Source: Nanobdellota archaeon (GTDB taxonomy: Archaea; Nanobdellota; Nanobdellia; Parvarchaeales; Parvarchaeaceae). Taken from it: DNA of 64,000 bases. Both the position numbers and the translations under genes were made by a program. Of the stretch, positions 10,179 to 64,000 are shown in pieces (position 1 is the stretch's first letter; each line of letters begins with the position of its first letter). The notes under the pieces were generated by a model that searched no databases, had not been told where the DNA came from, and worked only from the letters and a program-made list of their open reading frames with translations. The stretch covers positions 1 through 64,000 of the forward strand of contig JAKASS010000004.1 in assembly GCA_021818905.1 (NCBI GenBank). The letters are read 5' to 3'.

Positions 10179-11434
10179 TTTTCTACGTCGCTTACTTTCT
10201 TTCTTTGTTTGACGCTTTTAGGCGGCGTTTGTACTTCCAGGTTTCCCCTCTGCATAAACAGCATTACCCACGTTATCGTTATTGTCGATATTATAACCGC
10301 GAAAATCACGTCTATAAACCCCACATTCAATATGCCATATGCTATCGGCAAAGTAGCGACAACTGCTGCCGCGGTCCCTCTAGAGACCATGGAAGACGCC
10401 AACCTCTTGTCATCCTTAGAAAATTCTGATTTGGTGAGCGCCAACTTCGTCCCTACCAGTCTTGCCATCAGCAAAACAAGCGCTATGGCTACGCCAAGTA
10501 AGAAATCGTAATAATCGTTCAATAGTATCAATCCACCGAAATATACAAAGAAGAAAGACATCGTAAAAAAAGTTATCAGGTCATTAAAGCTTTTCGATTT
10601 TTCGTTTATCGTGAACGAGGCACTGTGTCTGTAACGTAAGGCCTTGTATAGGTCCTCGCCGTTTGCTATCACTAGACCGAATATCAAAGCGGAAACCGGA
10701 CCGCTCCCCCCGATGTCCTGGACGAGTATGTACAAGACGAAAACCAGTGCGAGAGAAGCTACATACGAGTAAGCGTAGCGGTTCCTCTGGAGATAGCTCA
10801 TCGCCGGGATCCAAGCGATCGCCAGGGCCGCGCCCAACACGATGCCTATAGAAAACTGGGACACTAGCGCGGGCACCAGCGCCCCTATCTGATAATTATT
10901 TAACAATACCGCCCCGATTATAACAAGGACAAGTATTATGCAAACCGGTTCGGTTATGGCCGATTCTAAATTTATAAGGCCACTTTTTTTGTCTTTCGGT
11001 GAATCGACCTTGCTGAGGGATGGGATCACCTCCGCGCTTACGCTTCCGACCGCGAAAGCGGTAATTATAGAGACCAACGGGCCGTACCCCAAAAAGTACA
11101 TCAATGCAAACACAAATCCGGCCGACACGGCAAAGTTTACAAAAGCGGATATGGCTGCCCTGTGAACAAGCCCTGCGAGTTTCTTTATCTTAAGGACTAG
11201 CCCCGCGTTGAAAAGCAGGATAAGTATTACCAGCACAGAGATGAAAGGCAATGCGGAAAGCAGGACCGAGATTTTGGCAAGCGAAAAAATGGGTACTAAT
11301 AGTATCCCAAACACCATCAGCCACACCATATAAGGTATTGACGTCTTCTTTGCTATGGCCCTGCCTATAAAACCTATGAGCAATATGGCGGCCGCGCCAA
11401 GCATAAAAAAATTTAATTCTGTATAGTCCAACAT
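10169..11434 (-). CDS. Cation/proton antiporter (CPA family), first of tandem pair
   Basis: The 421-residue polytopic membrane protein is homologous to the downstream gene. Both have helix 2 of the YMVWLMVFGILLVPIFSL type and a central FAVGSVSAEVIPSLSKVDSP, where E precedes V-I-P as in the partner's E-L-T-P. The C-terminal tail is basic (SVKQRKKVSDVEKWV). The overlap with the second gene by 10 bases suggests co-expression and perhaps a heteromeric exchanger. The aspartate pair typical of electrogenic Na+/H+ antiporters is not seen at the expected place in either protein. Confidence 0.82.
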   Translation of the reverse strand: MLDYTELNFFMLGAAAILLIGFIGRAIAKKTSIPYMVWLMVFGILLVPIFSLAKISVLLSALPFISVLVILILLFNAGLVLKIKKLAGLVHRAAISAFVNFAVSAGFVFALMYFLGYGPLVSIITAFAVGSVSAEVIPSLSKVDSPKDKKSGLINLESAITEPVCIILVLVIIGAVLLNNYQIGALVPALVSQFSIGIVLGAALAIAWIPAMSYLQRNRYAYSYVASLALVFVLYILVQDIGGSGPVSALIFGLVIANGEDLYKALRYRHSASFTINEKSKSFNDLITFFTMSFFFVYFGGLILLNDYYDFLLGVAIALVLLMARLVGTKLALTKSEFSKDDKRLASSMVSRGTAAAVVATLPIAYGILNVGFIDVIFAVIISTITITWVMLFMQRGNLEVQTPPKSVKQRKKVSDVEKWV

Positions 11435-38649: not shown

Positions 38650-39567
38650 CTATGTCAAAGGGTTATGGCTCTGTAGAAATCCTATGATAATAATATAAGC
38701 AAGCTGTATGAATCGCCGGATGTCGTAGATTACGTCGATCACCTTCACTTCCTTTATCTTGTTCCAATGCAGCCTGCTGCCCAAGGTGGAGCCGAACTTC
38801 CTCTTCTCCACGGAGTTGACAGTCTCCACAAGGCTTCGTTTGTGGTACTCGTCGAGTGGAAAGTCCGTCTTCATCAGCTTTCTCCATCTTCCCCTGGTCT
38901 TCCATACGGGAACGTCTTCATTCCTTGCAGGAATGATAGATCCTGCGTGGAGCTTCTCCCTTGAAAATTGGTGATTTCTCTCCGGATCGTATCCTTTATC
39001 GGCCAGTATCCTATCGATCTTTACTATTTCAGCGGCTTTCTTCATGAGTGGTCTGAAGGTCTTATTGTCGCTTTCATATCTTCGGTTGGAGGAAGAAGCG
39101 GCTATCGCTTTCGTCTTCGGGTCTACGACGATGGAATGCTTGGTAAACTCACTTATACGCCGTTCTTCGCCTATTCTCCACAAGTAATGGTAGGAAGCAT
39201 TGCGTTCGTCGTATCCGGTGGAGTCTATCGCTGCGTCCATCCTTCCTATCCCGAACAGTCCGAACGCCAAGGACAGCATCGCATCCCATACTCGCATCGG
39301 TATCCGTTTGAAGAACTTCTGCAGTGTCGTATAATGGGGGACATTATCGAAGTCAAACAACCCTTTAAGCTCTTCCAGCTCGTCTACGACGTCCCGATAA
39401 GGCTTTCTCTCGTGTCTCATCAGGCAGATGCAGGCTGCCAGCTGTGGCTGCGTGTACGTCTTCTTGGAGAACTTGTTCGAGAAGGGCGACAACGCTCTCC
39501 CCGCTACGCCCAATACGATGGACGCAAATCTTTTATAGTAAGACTCCCTTCTCTTTTTCATAAGCAC
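38650..39567 (-). CDS. IS5-family (IS903-like) DDE transposase
   Basis: The 305-residue transposase has the DDE residues in DAAIDSTGYD, ADKGYDPERNHQF and RSLVETVNSVEKRKFG (YHKRSLVETVNSVEK). The start is GTG 39567 or ATG 39561. The reading frame runs through the left inverted repeat and out of the element: its stop lies at 38650, in the neighbouring DNA and upstream of the 9-bp duplication, so the last residues (SHNPLT) come from the target site. The protein appears intact. Confidence 0.92.
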   Translation of the reverse strand: MLMKKRRESYYKRFASIVLGVAGRALSPFSNKFSKKTYTQPQLAACICLMRHERKPYRDVVDELEELKGLFDFDNVPHYTTLQKFFKRIPMRVWDAMLSLAFGLFGIGRMDAAIDSTGYDERNASYHYLWRIGEERRISEFTKHSIVVDPKTKAIAASSSNRRYESDNKTFRPLMKKAAEIVKIDRILADKGYDPERNHQFSREKLHAGSIIPARNEDVPVWKTRGRWRKLMKTDFPLDEYHKRSLVETVNSVEKRKFGSTLGSRLHWNKIKEVKVIDVIYDIRRFIQLAYIIIIGFLQSHNPLT

Positions 39568-39632
39568 CTCTTTTTTGTTTATTTCCTATAATCATCAAGG
39601 AGGTGCTTACTTTAGAGGATTTCTACAGAGCC
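38667..39632 (-). mobile_element. Complete IS5-family insertion sequence (IS903-like), 966 bp
   Basis: The ends are 17-bp perfect inverted repeats: GGCTCTGTAGAAATCCT (38667-38683) and its reverse complement (39616-39632). The repeat resembles the IS903 end, and 9-bp duplications are the rule for that group. Flanks of this single IS do not match each other, but AAGGGTTAT at 38658-38666 matches the flank of a lone right end at 41754. It forms the left end of the larger mobile unit. Related copies or ends occur at 47173-47205, 48311-48389, 61429-61446 and 63958-64000. Confidence 0.9.
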
Positions 39633-39647
39633 CAAAAAATATATTCC

Positions 39648-40759
39648 GTTGCATAACTCAGTGATGACCTTATAGCTCATCATAGTGATCCTCCTTTCTT
39701 TGCGTCGTCGACGCGTCTGCATCAGATCTTCAACAACGAGTTATACAACAGCAGCTTCAGGGTCATCTCGTTCTTCACCTTCTTCCATACGCGGGAAGAA
39801 GCGTGGCTCCCGTATACCCGTTTGAAGGCGGAGAAGAACGATTCAATCAGCCATCTTCTGCCGTATCCGACCTTCTCCTTCCATTTCTTCTGGTAGTAGC
39901 GCATCACTTCACGTTCATTGAAGAGTACGGTGCCATCGGTGACGGGAGGATGCTTCCTCTCAAGATGACCGTGGGGAAGCAGGCTGAACTGCTCCATCAC
40001 CGCCTTCTTCCTAGGAAGACAGCCCGGGGCGGTGGGAGAGGCGGTCTGTCTTATCTTTATCCCGGACCGTATGCCGTGCTTATCAAGGAATGAAAAGTTA
40101 TCCTTCGCATCGTAGGCTCCGTCGGCGTAGACGGTATCGCCCCTTCTTGCGGCTTCCCTGATCATGGCAAGGGACTTCCTGTTGTCGGCCACGTGCTCGG
40201 AAGTCAGCCTAAAGTCCACGATCTCCATCTCCTCCACGTCTATCATCGCGTGCAGCTTGTGGAACTTAGGCTTGGAACCATACCTGGAATCCCTATATCC
40301 TCCGCGATCGGAGACGGATATCCCCGTGGCGTCTATGGCGAGGAGCCTGCCTTTCCTTTCGCTTTTGGTGACCGTCCATTCGAGTCTTATCGTGGATAAC
40401 CTTCTGTCTATAGTGGTATGGTCGGGAGAATAGCCATACATCCTTCTCACTAAAGCTTCGGTCTGCCTTAGCTTTGGGCAGAAACAGGACCTGAAGAAGC
40501 TTATCGCCATTATCAGGTCGTCCGAATAAAGGAAAGGCCTTCCTTCCTTTCCTTTATTCATCACGGTAAGTCTTTGCGGTTCTTTATGCAAAACGCGATC
40601 TATTTTAGCTATCACCGTCTCAGATCTTCGTTGGAGGCTGTCCTTCTTTTCCATGTTTTTCACCTGGTTTGAAGGATCTCCTCCACAAAGATCCTTTTTT
40701 TAGCTTGTTAGAAGCCATATCCTTGTAGATACGGCTATTCTATTAATGAGTTATGCAAC
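39648..40759 (-). mobile_element. Second insertion sequence, nested in the mobile unit
   Basis: GTTGCATAACTCA (39648-39660) and TGAGTTATGCAAC (40747-40759) are perfect 13-bp inverted repeats around one transposase gene. It is an IS5-family element of another subgroup, unrelated in ends to the neighbouring IS. I see no clear target duplication. It lies within the cargo portion of the composite unit, so it arrived later or was captured. Similar end-like sequences occur at about 63688-63701 and 63847-63860. Confidence 0.8.
39722..40663 (-). CDS. IS5-like transposase of the nested IS
   Basis: The 313-residue protein has DDE residues in LLAIDATGISVSDRGG, TVYADGAYDAKDN and GRRWLIESFFSAFKRVYG. The N-terminal RPFLYSDDLIMAISFFR and RMYGYSPDHTTIDRRL match a helical DNA-binding domain. 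It is full length and uninterrupted, so the nested element may be active. Its promoter and inverted repeat lie immediately upstream (40664-40759). Confidence 0.9.
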   Translation of the reverse strand: MKNMEKKDSLQRRSETVIAKIDRVLHKEPQRLTVMNKGKEGRPFLYSDDLIMAISFFRSCFCPKLRQTEALVRRMYGYSPDHTTIDRRLSTIRLEWTVTKSERKGRLLAIDATGISVSDRGGYRDSRYGSKPKFHKLHAMIDVEEMEIVDFRLTSEHVADNRKSLAMIREAARRGDTVYADGAYDAKDNFSFLDKHGIRSGIKIRQTASPTAPGCLPRKKAVMEQFSLLPHGHLERKHPPVTDGTVLFNEREVMRYYQKKWKEKVGYGRRWLIESFFSAFKRVYGSHASSRVWKKVKNEMTLKLLLYNSLLKI

Positions 40760-40780
40760 CGAATACGAAGCGATAAAAGC

Positions 40781-40824
40781 TTTATATATTAGTTCACTTC
40801 ATAGGAACAATTAAACTAAGGAGG
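40781..40824 (+). promoter_or_regulatory. TATA box and Shine-Dalgarno of the mobile-unit cargo gene
   Basis: TTTATATATT at 40781-40790 lies 45-55 bases before ATG 40836, and AAGGAGG at 40818-40824 is 11 bases before it. The layout copies that of the 2120 gene. Confidence 0.5.
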
Positions 40825-40835
40825 TTTAACGAATT

Positions 40836-41585
40836 ATGGAAAATGAAAAAAAGGGCAAAAAAGGATTGTCGCAGATACTGTTTGGAATACCAAGAAAAGA
40901 AGTGGTAAACGGCTATAAATTCTTATCTCAAGACATGAGAAGCCGGTATGGCGATCGCCCACGATGGTCGCTGGGCGTTCCGCTCACTTATGACGGCAAA
41001 ATCAGACCCTGCAGTAGCGGTTTCCACGCTTCGCTGGATCTGTATTCAGCCTATAGAAATTCTCCGATAGGGGACCGTCTTTTCGAGGTGGAAGCGCGCG
41101 GAGTCGTCGAAGGCAAAGACGGTCTGTTCGCAGCCCGCGAAATGACACTCGTGAGAGAGATCGATTTGGAAAGCTTGTCGATAGACTACGCCATAAATTG
41201 CGCTAAGCACGTCCTTCGTCACTATGAGGAAATATATCCGGGAGACGATCGACCGAGAAAAGCGATAGAAGCCGCGGAGAACTATCTGAATAGTCCTTCC
41301 GAAAAGAACCGGTCTGCTGCTAGGTCTGCTGATTGGTCTGCTGAGTCTGCTGCTGAGTCTGCTGCTAGGTCTGCTGATTGGTCTGCTTGGTCTGCTGCTA
41401 GGTCTGCTGATTGGTCTGCTTGGTCTGCTGCTAGGTCTGCTGATTGGTCTGATTGGTCTGCTTGGTCTGTTGCTAAGTCTGCTGCTAAGTCTGCTGCTGA
41501 GTCTGCTGGGTGGTTTAATAATGGGTTTTCTGAAGAGGAAAAATGGCAGAAGAAGTTGCTTGAAGAGTTAGTAAAGAAATACTGA
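40836..41585 (+). CDS. Repeat protein carried by the mobile unit (DUF7666-like start, Imm-like repeats)
   Basis: The 249-residue cargo protein has three parts. Residues 25-125 resemble DUF7666-type domains: GVPLTYDGKIRPCSSGFHAS (the C..GFHA motif), RLFEVEARGVV and AAREMTLVREI. Residues 126-155 have CAKHVLRHYEEIYPGDDRPR and KAIEAAENYL, known from small immunity-like proteins with similar repeats. Residues about 160-225 are repeats of SA-x-x (SAARSADWSAWSAARSADW). It ends with a charged helix. Functions of these families are not established; phage and mobile DNA are their common settings. Confidence 0.65.
   Translation: MENEKKGKKGLSQILFGIPRKEVVNGYKFLSQDMRSRYGDRPRWSLGVPLTYDGKIRPCSSGFHASLDLYSAYRNSPIGDRLFEVEARGVVEGKDGLFAAREMTLVREIDLESLSIDYAINCAKHVLRHYEEIYPGDDRPRKAIEAAENYLNSPSEKNRSAARSADWSAESAAESAARSADWSAWSAARSADWSAWSAARSADWSDWSAWSVAKSAAKSAAESAGWFNNGFSEEEKWQKKLLEELVKKY
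41313..41510 (+). repeat. 12-bp coding minisatellite (TCTGCTNNNNNN)
   Basis: About 16 near-repeats of TCTGCT plus six variable bases encode the SA-x-x tetrapeptides of the cargo protein. Larger blocks (for example TCTGCTGATTGG followed by TCTGCTTGG) repeat in tandem. Copy number is probably variable between strains because of slippage. Confidence 0.85.
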
Positions 41586-41738
41586 CGAAAAAGCGTCTGC
41601 TCTATAAAGGGATGCGCACGATCCGCCGGGCGCAAGGTCGGGCTGATCGCAGCCATGATCATCACGACTACGCCGCCGATGATTTTGTGATCCAGATATG
41701 TGAGCGCGGAAAATAAACGCCAGATATTCATCGAAAGC

Positions 41739-41754
41739 GGATTTCTACAGAGCC
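41739..41754. repeat. Lone IS right end closing the mobile unit
   Basis: GGATTTCTACAGAGCC is the outer 16 bp of the IS right end without adjoining transposase. It is followed directly by AAGGGTTAT, the copy of the sequence before the IS left end at 38667. The adjacent inner DNA (41586-41738) shows no gene that I trust. Confidence 0.8.
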
Positions 41755-41769
41755 AAGGGTTATAAAAGA

Positions 41770-41777
41770 TTTAAATA
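41770..41777 (+). promoter_or_regulatory. TATA box of the eL43-rpoP-pcc1-pfdB operon
   Basis: TTTAAATA, with the purine-rich AAAAGA BRE-like stretch before it, lies 25 bases before the eL43 ATG at 41802. The mobile unit ends only a few bases upstream of the element. Confidence 0.55.
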
Positions 41778-41801: not shown

Positions 41802-41999
41802 ATGAGAACGCCCAGATATGGAGTCGGAGTAAGGAAAAGACTGGACGAAGTACACAAACAAAGAAGCCAAAAATACCAATGCCCTAGATGCAAGAAACTT
41901 ACGATGAAAAGAGTTTACAGCGGCGTTTGGAAGTGCAACAAATGCGGCCTAGAGGTAGCTGACAATGCTTACTCTATGTCGATAAAAACAATAAGGTAG
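41802..41999 (+). CDS. rpl37ae: Large ribosomal subunit protein eL43 (L37Ae)
   Basis: The 65-residue zinc protein begins MRTPRYGVGVRKRLDEVHKQ and has the C4 zinc ribbon YQCPRCKKLTMKRV then WKCNKCGLEVADNAY. It is short relative to many L37Ae proteins (about 70-90), but has all four cysteines. It leads the conserved archaeal cluster eL43, rpoP, pcc1, pfdB with a six-base gap to rpoP. Confidence 0.96.
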   Translation: MRTPRYGVGVRKRLDEVHKQRSQKYQCPRCKKLTMKRVYSGVWKCNKCGLEVADNAYSMSIKTIR

Positions 42000-46979: not shown

Positions 46980-47260
46980 TCCAAACCGTTTGCCCGAATA
47001 AAGCTGCAGATGTTTATTTAGTACACGGAGAACTTCCTCACAATCAAATCTAAAAACCAAATTAGAAGGCCTTGGATACGCAGACATCGGTCACGATAGT
47101 CGACGCACCTATGCCGTCTAGAAGCTTGATCCAGAACAGCGCCCAATCGTTTGCGTTGCCGTCTACATTAAAGGGGTGCTTACTTTAGAGGATTTCTACA
47201 GAGCCTTATATTTAGAAAACTGTTAAAATACCGACGTTTATATAATGTTAAAGTATTTAA
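46980..47260. other. Mobile-element debris, no intact gene
   Basis: About 280 bases. On the minus strand a 3' gene fragment reads FNVDGNANDWALFWIKLLDG then IGASTIVTDVCVSKAF and a stop near 47064; it is not recognised. At 47173-47205 lies the right end of the IS seen at 38667 (GGTGCTTACTTTAG then AGGATTTCTACAGAGCC at 47189-47205). The IS body is gone. No promoter for the preceding gene. Confidence 0.6.
47173..47205. repeat. Solitary right end of the IS903-like element
   Basis: GGTGCTTACTTTAGAGGATT onward to GAGCC is identical to the outer 33 bases of the IS right end at 39600-39632. Nothing else of that IS lies beside it, so this is a relic or the edge of another cargo unit. Confidence 0.8.
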
Positions 47261-48310: not shown

Positions 48311-48403
48311 TATAAGAAATAAACAAAAAAGAGGTGCTTATGAAAGAGAAAAGAGGGCCTTACTATAAAAGGTTTGTGTCTGCGGTCTTGGGGGGGGGGG
48401 GGG
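48311..48403 (+). pseudogene. Transposase 5' remnant of the IS903-like IS, ending in a run of 14 G
   Basis: ATAAGAAATAAACAAAAAAG and the following GAGGTGCTTATG match the start of the IS gene at 39540-39592. The frame reads MKEKRGPYYKRFVSAVLG, like MKKRRESYYKRFASIVLG of the intact transposase. At 48390-48403 the sequence becomes 14 consecutive G and homology stops. The rest of the transposase and the IS end are gone. The remnant abuts the 3' end of the DUF929-like gene. Confidence 0.8.
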
Positions 48404-61428: not shown

Positions 61429-61446
61429 GGCTCTGTAGAAATCCTA
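61429..61446. repeat. Lone left end of the IS903-like element
   Basis: GGCTCTGTAGAAATCCTA repeats the IS left end at 38667, but the following bases do not match the IS. It is preceded by TAAATCACC (61420-61428). It probably marks the left boundary of a second cargo unit that includes the 61618 gene and the IS starting at 63958. Confidence 0.75.
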
Positions 61447-61617
61447 AGCCATAGCAGAAATTATCCTGGGCCTCGCTCTTTTTCCAATGGATTCTTCATT
61501 GAATCGCGTGCTGCTCTAAGTATTTCTGTTTGTCGATGCGATAGTGAAAGACATTGATTTAATAAGTAACTACTATAAAATGAAGGGCTTATATAATAGT
61601 TATATCCATGAATATGC

Positions 61618-63423
61618 ATGAGACTTGAAGAGGTATTGCAAGACCCCGTTAGGATAGCTACTATAGACCGGCTTGGACCAAGTGTCCGGCTTGCGATAGA
61701 AAAAACCATCGGGAGATATGAAGGAGCAGCTGCCGGGGCTGTCGCTAATGGATTGGGATGGATTGCTGCGAATATTAAGGATAAAGATGCCGCTGTCGAA
61801 TGTGCAAGGGCCATCGGGAGATATGAAGAAGCAGCTGCTGAGACTGTTACTGATGGATTGGAAATGATCACTTGGGATACTAAGGATAAAGACACTGTGA
61901 TAAATGTCGCTAAGATAATGTCGCTTGATGAGATAGTGAATACCATTGGGAGATATGAAGGAAAGGCTGCTGGGGCTGTTGCTTATAAATTGGGGGTAAT
62001 CGCTGCGAATACTAAAGATAACGACACTGTGATGAATGTCGCTAACATTATGTCGCTTGAGGAGATAGTGAATGCCATTGGGAGATATGAAGGAGAAGCT
62101 GCCGGGGCTGTTGCTTATGGATTGGGGAATATCACTTTGGATACTAAAGATAAAGATGCCACTGTCGAATGTGCAAGGACAATCGGGAGATATGAAGGAG
62201 AAACTGCCGGGGCTGTTGCTTATGGGTTGGGGAATATCGCTCGGGATACCGAGGATAAAGACACTGTCGTTTTGGCATGCGACATCGTAAACAGGGCCGG
62301 AAACAATGTACTCGATTTATTGTGTGCGCAAGACTTCGTAACCATCCATAAGAAGGGGCTGGATACGCTTATAGAAGGAAAGGAAAGTCTCGATGCTGTG
62401 ACCGCTTACGTCAAGTCAGGGGAAGGACTGCCTATCCCCACGCAGGAGAATATCGCCGATTATCGGAGGATAGCGAACGGATATGTCTCCGGTGAATACG
62501 GCATAAGCAAAGGACTGGGTATGAACCAGATACTTATGCTGTTCTCAGTGAAGAAGGAAGACCGTAAAGGATTGGCTGCCCTTGTAAACGCTTCAAGCGA
62601 GAAGGACAGGAAGACGTATTCGATCACTATGAACGATACGGAAGACCGTTCCTTGAGGATAGATCACGGTAAGCTGCCTTATCTCTCCCTTATAGCGGTA
62701 GTAGGTTCAAGGGATCCTGAAAAGGAGACGGAAGCCAGAGGCGTCCTGGGCAAGATAGTGGGTGAAAAGGCTATCAGACGCGCAAGGAACGCCTTCGATT
62801 CCGGCTATAAGTCCATGATCGGGAAGATAGCCGGCTACGTAAAAGAGGGACGCGTGGACCAAGCCATCAAAGAGCTTAAAGACACCAAAGACGAGGCCAT
62901 AAACGACGTACTCGCAGCCGCAGATCACAGGGAGATCGGTATCACGGGAAAGAACGTCCTTGAAGCGGTGGAAAGCAATGATCCACTGGATTATGACGGC
63001 AGGGTACAGATCGCCTGCGTTTATCTTCCCAGAGGATATGAAGAAGGGATATACGATTACTGTAAAGACAAGAGATTCAGCCTTATAAGGTATAGTATAG
63101 GCGGCAGATCGTTAGGGAGCGCCATATGCTACATGGAAGACGACAGACTCCTGGTCGATTCCGTAGAAGGGCACCGCACCTTCAGGAAACCCCAGATATT
63201 CGATGCCGTTTACAGGGACCTTATCGCAAGAGCCGGGGAGAAAGGCGCAAAGGAGATAATATTCAGCGCCGACGGGGTGAACGAGACCCCGAGGGAGTTC
63301 ATGGCCTACCTTAAAAGCCTCGGATGCAGAAAAGGGAAAGCCAAGATGAGACTCGATACTGAAGGATATCTGGAAGCCGATGAGGACATGGTGGAAGGGT
63401 ATGTGCACGGACTCCCACAATAA
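61618..63423 (+). CDS. Repeat protein with acetyltransferase-like C-terminus, cargo of a second mobile unit
   Basis: The 601-residue protein has five helical repeats between residues about 29 and 235, each starting IGRYEG and continuing like AAAGAVAYGLGNIA then DTKDKDAAVECARA. Repeat length alternates (about 35 or 44; the longer holds NVAKIMSLDEIVN). The middle region is novel. Residues about 450-595 resemble a GNAT fold: GGRSLGSAICYMEDDRLLVD, EGHRTFRKPQIFDAVYRDL, then FSADGVNETPREFMAYLKSL. Catalysis is unproven. TATA-like CTTATATAATAG is at about 61588. Confidence 0.7.
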   Translation: MRLEEVLQDPVRIATIDRLGPSVRLAIEKTIGRYEGAAAGAVANGLGWIAANIKDKDAAVECARAIGRYEEAAAETVTDGLEMITWDTKDKDTVINVAKIMSLDEIVNTIGRYEGKAAGAVAYKLGVIAANTKDNDTVMNVANIMSLEEIVNAIGRYEGEAAGAVAYGLGNITLDTKDKDATVECARTIGRYEGETAGAVAYGLGNIARDTEDKDTVVLACDIVNRAGNNVLDLLCAQDFVTIHKKGLDTLIEGKESLDAVTAYVKSGEGLPIPTQENIADYRRIANGYVSGEYGISKGLGMNQILMLFSVKKEDRKGLAALVNASSEKDRKTYSITMNDTEDRSLRIDHGKLPYLSLIAVVGSRDPEKETEARGVLGKIVGEKAIRRARNAFDSGYKSMIGKIAGYVKEGRVDQAIKELKDTKDEAINDVLAAADHREIGITGKNVLEAVESNDPLDYDGRVQIACVYLPRGYEEGIYDYCKDKRFSLIRYSIGGRSLGSAICYMEDDRLLVDSVEGHRTFRKPQIFDAVYRDLIARAGEKGAKEIIFSADGVNETPREFMAYLKSLGCRKGKAKMRLDTEGYLEADEDMVEGYVHGLPQ

Positions 63424-63957: not shown

Positions 63958-64000
63958 GGCTCTGTAGAAATCCTATGATAATAATATAAGCAAGCTGTAT
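63958..64000 (-). mobile_element. IS903-like insertion sequence, cut by window edge
   Basis: GGCTCTGTAGAAATCCTATG and the next 23 bases are identical to the left end of the IS at 38667, in the same orientation. The transposase 3' end is included; the rest lies beyond the window. It is probably a further full copy, forming the right part of a second cargo unit. Confidence 0.85.

Follow-up and report, generated by a model that had tools for sequence, protein, structure and literature searches.

Passenger genes can be moved by one intact insertion sequence (IS) together with a second end, as is already known. ISEcp1-type transposition units consist of an IS and a distal, alternative right end, and Tn903 is a composite transposon that is flanked by IS903. 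The retrotransposon Ty3 is guided by the promoter machinery to a fixed place near the transcription start, and the protein contacts that guide it have been shown. Among bacterial elements, TnGBS/ISLre2 and ISKra4 insert at a fixed distance upstream of sigma-A promoters (15-17 bp for TnGBS), and Ty3 of yeast has been cited as an analogy; for ISH6 of archaea, a preference for promoters or intergenic regions was only suggested, from its AT-rich target (PMC3942029).

We analyzed a stretch of 64,000 nucleotides (the window) from a Nanobdellota archaeon. It contains a 3,088-bp block (38667-41754) that is bracketed by two copies of the 9-bp direct repeat AAGGGTTAT (Table 1). From left to right, the block holds a complete IS (IS-A), the 9-mer CAAAAAATA, a second IS (IS-B), a cargo gene with a DUF7666 domain, and a solitary 16-bp IS-A end, which lies 2.1 kb beyond IS-A's own right end. 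Neither IS has equal flanks by itself: AAGGGTTAT and CAAAAAATA adjoin IS-A, and CAAAAAATA and CGAAGCGAT adjoin IS-B. A first-pass annotation of this DNA had described the perfect 9-bp duplication, the complete left IS with its 17-bp inverted repeats, the lone 16-bp copy of the right end, the second IS and the repeat-protein gene inside the block, and the mismatched single-IS flanks; we found each of these again, at the positions in Table 1. The reading frame of the IS-A transposase overshoots the left end of the IS by 17 bp, and there is no further IS-A sequence beside the 16-bp end. As for the source of the stretch between the cargo gene and this end (41586-41738), matches within the genus were only about 20 bp long, and there were none in plasmids or phages.

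Table 1. Features of the inserted block and of its target, in window coordinates
Feature	Position	Strand	Remarks
IS-A transposase, 305 aa, DDE	38650-39567	-	NCBIfam transpos_IS5_2, 180.7 bits (cut-off, 140)
Target duplication AAGGGTTAT, left copy, 9 bp	38658-38666	+	
IS-A, complete IS5-family element, 17-bp perfect inverted repeats (GGCTCTGTAGAAATCCT)	38667-39632	-	
CAAAAAATA, 9 bp between IS-A right end and IS-B left end	39633-39641	+	Putative target duplication, left when elements stacked previously at the donor
IS-B, second IS5-family element, ends TATTC[CG]GTTGCATAACTCA	39642-40765	-	
CGAAGCGAT, 9 bp at IS-B right end, abutting the BRE of the cargo gene (BRE downstream)	40766-40774	+	
Cargo gene BRE/TATA (AAAAGC TTTATATA)	40775-40788	+	Conserved in the G025 homologue
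Cargo gene, 249 aa: DUF7666, Imm5_like match, and Ser-Ala-rich repeat tail	40836-41585	+	
Solitary 16-bp IS-A end GGATTTCTACAGAGCC, right boundary of the unit	41739-41754	+	
Target duplication AAGGGTTAT, right copy, 9 bp	41755-41763	+	
eL43 BRE/TATA (AAAAGA TTTAAATA), target promoter, left intact	41764-41777	+	
eL43 (ribosomal protein L37ae), downstream of the target	41802-41999	+	

Both elements belong to the IS5 family: IS-A (Table 1) and IS-B (174.9 bits) exceed the curated cut-off of transpos_IS5_2, and the calls from Pfam and NCBIfam are DDE_Tnp_1 and IS5_2, with no match to a Mutator family. The first-pass annotation had called the unit IS903-like. IS-A agrees with this in two features: its ends (GGCTCTGTAGAAATCC) begin with GGC, and perfect 9-bp duplications surround six intact copies that stand singly in the genome; IS-B also makes 9-bp duplications (its copy on contig C4 has ATTTTTGTG), but its ends begin with TATTC. 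The closest annotated relatives on plasmids are archaeal and bacterial IS5 elements that are about 30-35% identical.

Could the matching 9-mers be due to chance? The genome is a draft assembly of 0.94 Mb in 25 contigs, in which we counted IS-A ends by pattern and BLAST searches. There are 48 ends with at most two mismatches, and the reversed-pattern control gave 0. Among these ends, 11 pairs have perfectly matching outward 9-mers, as compared with 0.005 pairs expected by chance, which excludes a chance origin for the match around the block. The 11 pairs are six single IS-A copies that each lie within one contig, three copies whose two ends are on different contigs, a rearranged pair that also involves two contigs, and the pair around the block. 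The last is the only same-contig pair that exceeds one IS, with 3,072 bp between the starts of the ends instead of 950-951 bp. Many contigs of the draft terminate within IS copies, which speaks for the possibility that the assembly fused unrelated copies into a false unit. We consider such an artefact extremely improbable: this IS-A copy is about 9-10% divergent from the other full copies in the genome, the cargo gene and the right part of the block occur once, and the 9-mers on the two sides agree.

Comparison with relatives reveals the site without the block. In two genomes (G025 and G026), the interval between the regulator and eL43 aligns on both sides, lacks the block, and has one copy of the target position. 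The first-pass annotation had proposed looking for an empty site with a single copy of the 9-mer. The block-free interval is there, but the exact ancestral 9-mer was not seen: the target letters have diverged to TAAGATTAT and GATAGTTAT, each with 6 of 9 matches to AAGGGTTAT. More broadly, 19 relatives have the two flanks on a single contig, and in 18 of them the size of the gap is about what is expected without a 3.1-kb insert. We rejected the nineteenth (G010) as an independent insertion at eL43, as it holds an unrelated gene that resembles those for surface proteins. The named relatives of the genus in a public collection are metagenome-assembled genomes labelled Nanoarchaeota or Candidatus Parvarchaeota. 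An arrangement that the first-pass annotation had named as contrary to its reading, with the cargo gene beside eL43 but no IS, was looked for in the relatives and not found. Its other proposal, to find the 3.1-kb unit elsewhere, yielded nothing: the genome has no second copy of the unit, of the cargo gene, or of the right part, and no IS-A ends were found near cargo homologues in other genomes or relatives. Because the 9-bp duplication matches and relatives have the empty site, the sequence comparison supports the view that the block was inserted as one unit.

We estimate a probability of about 70% that the 3,088 bp were inserted in a single event, by means of the left end of IS-A and the distal bare end, into a target upstream of a promoter. 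The IS-A transposase would have skipped the right end of IS-A and cleaved the distal 16-bp end instead, taking along IS-B and the DUF7666 gene. That one transposase moved the 3.1-kb segment via its own left end and a distant right end had been proposed in the first-pass annotation, and the duplication and the empty site support it; we infer the transposase's choice of ends, and also that the right end was already bare at the time of transposition. A point against a single event is that the unit was observed just once, with no copy at a second site. No other duplication-flanked unit was found in the genome: two other loci combine an IS-A end with cargo (C15 and window position 61429), and their flanks are unmatched or they run to the end of the contig.

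The block resembles ISEcp1-type units in that one complete IS and a distant second end lie within a single target duplication, with a passenger gene between them. This is a likeness of working only, as the transposase families differ; here, the IS is an archaeal member of the IS5 family, the duplication is 9 bp, and the distal end is a perfect match (16/16) instead of a weak one. The block also resembles Tn903, with IS5-family ends that begin with GGC, a 9-bp duplication, and an internal passenger gene. Like a composite transposon, it has a single target duplication around the whole (AAGGGTTAT, with the empty site in relatives). However, there is only one complete IS copy, the other side is a bare end with just 16 bp of the IS, and a second type of IS lies inside. 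The block might nevertheless have entered as a composite transposon between two full IS-A copies, the right one of which would since have lost all but its terminal 16 bp. Erosion is common in this genome, with IS-A remnants of 28, 40, 64, ~91, 93, and 119 bp, and one locus on C15 looks like an eroded composite, with an AbiE operon between remnants of 93 and 408 bp. But such a deletion would need an endpoint precisely at the inner boundary of the 16-bp repeat, and no other IS-A sequence is left there. Although this coincidence of an exact edge also weighs, to some degree, on a single insertion with a bare right end, we view a later deletion as the less likely of the two.

The site that the block occupies appears to follow a rule. 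Exactly 6 bp separate the duplication from the TATA box of eL43, with the BRE directly adjoining the duplication, and the start codon of eL43 begins 25 bp after the TATA box. When we examined the outward flanks of all IS-A ends, we saw the same arrangement on one side of most insertions: 9 bp, a BRE-like stretch of 6 bp, and a TATA box. Across the 10 sites in this genome that are proven by a duplication, the logo is one-sided (the target site duplication [TSD], then NNAAAN, then TTTAWATA), with no mirror motif upstream, and in 7 of the 10, an open reading frame starts at most 70 bp past the TATA box. Copies of IS-B have a register identical to that of IS-A. The register also appears in most copies, in genome G002, of a cousin that is about 46% identical, and at a site that G002 and G001 have in common.

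We then analyzed 80 loci with related transposases from genomes of the same class, for which the ends were called from an inverted repeat and an exact duplication of 7-10 bp, without using the TATA box. Ends and a duplication were obtained for 14 of the 80 loci (12 distinct); the other 66 of these distant loci had no detectable ones. Among about 44 offsets on the two sides, the best match to BRE/TATA started exactly 2 bp past the duplication (+2) in 12 of the 14 loci (10 of the 12 distinct ones), and it started at +3 and +4 in the other two. Where the duplication is 8 bp long (L176, L179, L222, and L227), the motif shifts along with its edge. We pooled the 10 sites from this genome with the 12 distinct loci, leaving out the rearranged pair. 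The pooled score at +2 was 8.86, as compared with a mean of 4.87 (standard deviation, 0.34) at other offsets (z = 11.7), and 19 of the 22 sites had the motif at +1 to +3. The rearranged IS-A pair (C17:63958 with C24:18336) lacks a clear TATA box, and a few other insertions also lack one in register. Three distant insertions with duplications, two on haloarchaeal plasmids and one bacterial, did not show the BRE/TATA motif, so the rule need not cover all relatives within IS5, although this is a small control. Judging from their insertion sites, then, IS-A, IS-B, and related elements of this class land directly in front of archaeal core promoters.

Might this register be due to survivorship, with insertions within genes lost and only those upstream of promoters remaining? 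About 89% of the window lies within open reading frames of at least 90 amino acids, with both strands counted, and the scarce intergenic space is mostly promoters. But survivorship should give a spread of distances. Instead, the peak spans a single base, occurs on one side only, and tracks the edge of both 8-bp and 9-bp duplications; and the two haloarchaeal relatives and the bacterial relative with duplications, albeit a small control, show no such motif. Thus, we regard survivorship as a very improbable explanation. As for a mechanism, we tentatively suggest that bound TBP/TFB might direct the IS5-type transposases of small (DPANN-type) archaea to the BRE edge, as an archaeal counterpart to the targeting of Ty3; alternatively, the transposase may recognize the DNA motif itself. 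Both would reach a fixed place near a promoter; for Ty3 the contacts have been shown, whereas here the place is known from insertion sites. If guidance by TBP/TFB is correct, the elements could live in gene-dense genomes and bring passenger genes to safe sites near promoters.

TnGBS/ISLre2 and ISKra4 likewise spare the core promoter by inserting at a set distance upstream of it, and here the peak is 6 bp before the TATA box. Those elements are bacterial and have Mutator-type transposases, whereas these are IS5-type elements that use archaeal BRE/TATA, with 6-bp spacing and in both orientations. ISH6 is likewise an archaeal IS with an AT-rich target, but in ISH6 it is the AT-rich motif that is duplicated as the target, whereas here the TATA box is at a fixed distance outside the duplication. 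In the full-text literature, which leaves most subscription journals outside its scope, we found no report of IS5-type elements that are keyed to archaeal BRE/TATA. Similarly, for IS903 solo ends, archaeal promoter targeting, IS elements of DPANN archaea, and IS903 target choice, the only item on the subject was PMC3942029. Promoter-upstream targeting is known in bacterial elements, and as far as this limited coverage of the literature goes, the archaeal IS5 case is new. Gene-dense small genomes are expected to tolerate few insertions, yet in this one, IS5-type copies and fragments number in the dozens. A rule that directs insertions to the position immediately before the core promoter would account for this tolerance, and also for the arrival of genes carried by IS elements beside working promoters. 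IS insertion sites could also provide a simple route to real promoters in uncultured archaea.

A landing rule common to the group, with a 9-bp target directly upstream of BRE/TATA, would leave the core promoter whole and would allow the same promoter-adjacent 9 bp to be used repeatedly, which would build a stack of the form X-IS-X-IS-X-promoter. One target has been re-used by two elements on C4 (G000:C4, L104 716-3150), where ATTTTTGTG is present three times around IS-B and IS-D, a third IS5-type element. Since the promoter-adjacent 9 bp can be a repeated target, stacking would explain the arrangement IS-A|CAAAAAATA|IS-B in the unit, and also a similar IS-A|9 bp|IS-B pair on C3, which has a different 9-mer. 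So CAAAAAATA would be common to IS-A and IS-B through the kind of stacking that is seen for X=ATTTTTGTG on C4. The mismatch of CAAAAAATA and CGAAGCGAT around IS-B, which counts against this account, would imply an extra step at the donor, such as an adjacent deletion or the recombination of IS-B with another of its copies.

Re-use of one another's duplications raises another explanation for the block: IS-A alone might have inserted with AAGGGTTAT, and IS-B, the cargo gene, and the extra end might have been added later, between IS-A and the right-hand duplication. The copies at C17:63958 and C24:18336 both have TCTTAGTTT, which points to recombination between IS copies. But re-use places the newer element on the promoter side; the remnant should then lie to the left of the IS, the opposite of the observed order. 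Also, the addition of a block ending in a 16-bp end that is flush with AAGGGTTAT would need recombination inside those 16 bp. So, stepwise assembly is improbable, and we prefer insertion of the whole block in one event.

The cargo gene may itself be mobile or linked to phages, because the relative G006 has about five copies of the DUF7666 family (L054, L059, and L061-L064) and because relatives lie on viral contigs from IMG/VR. The alignment search with the cargo protein identified 10 genome loci and 24 viral loci. There were no confirmed matches to the IS-A transposase in the genome contig collection, and none on viral contigs when the single cargo protein was the query.

There are other traces of IS-A in this genome. 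The AbiEi/AbiEii operon on C15 (L065 960-3032) has an IS-A-type remnant of 93 bp on one side and an IS-A remnant of 408 bp on the other, with unmatched flanks, and the locus is probably an eroded composite transposon. The TCTTAGTTT that window position 63958 has in common with the IS-A copy at G000:C24:18336 points to inversion or recombination between IS copies. Within the window, two adjoining parts of a single IS-A right end are now separated by 1.1 kb and point in opposite directions (47166-47205 and 48311-48380), which suggests that an inversion may have split the element. Finally, a solitary 28-bp IS-A-type end is followed by an internally repeated protein of 601 amino acids that has no Pfam match (window 61429-63423), and a repeat relative of this protein adjoins an IS-A copy on C24 (~10500-11111).
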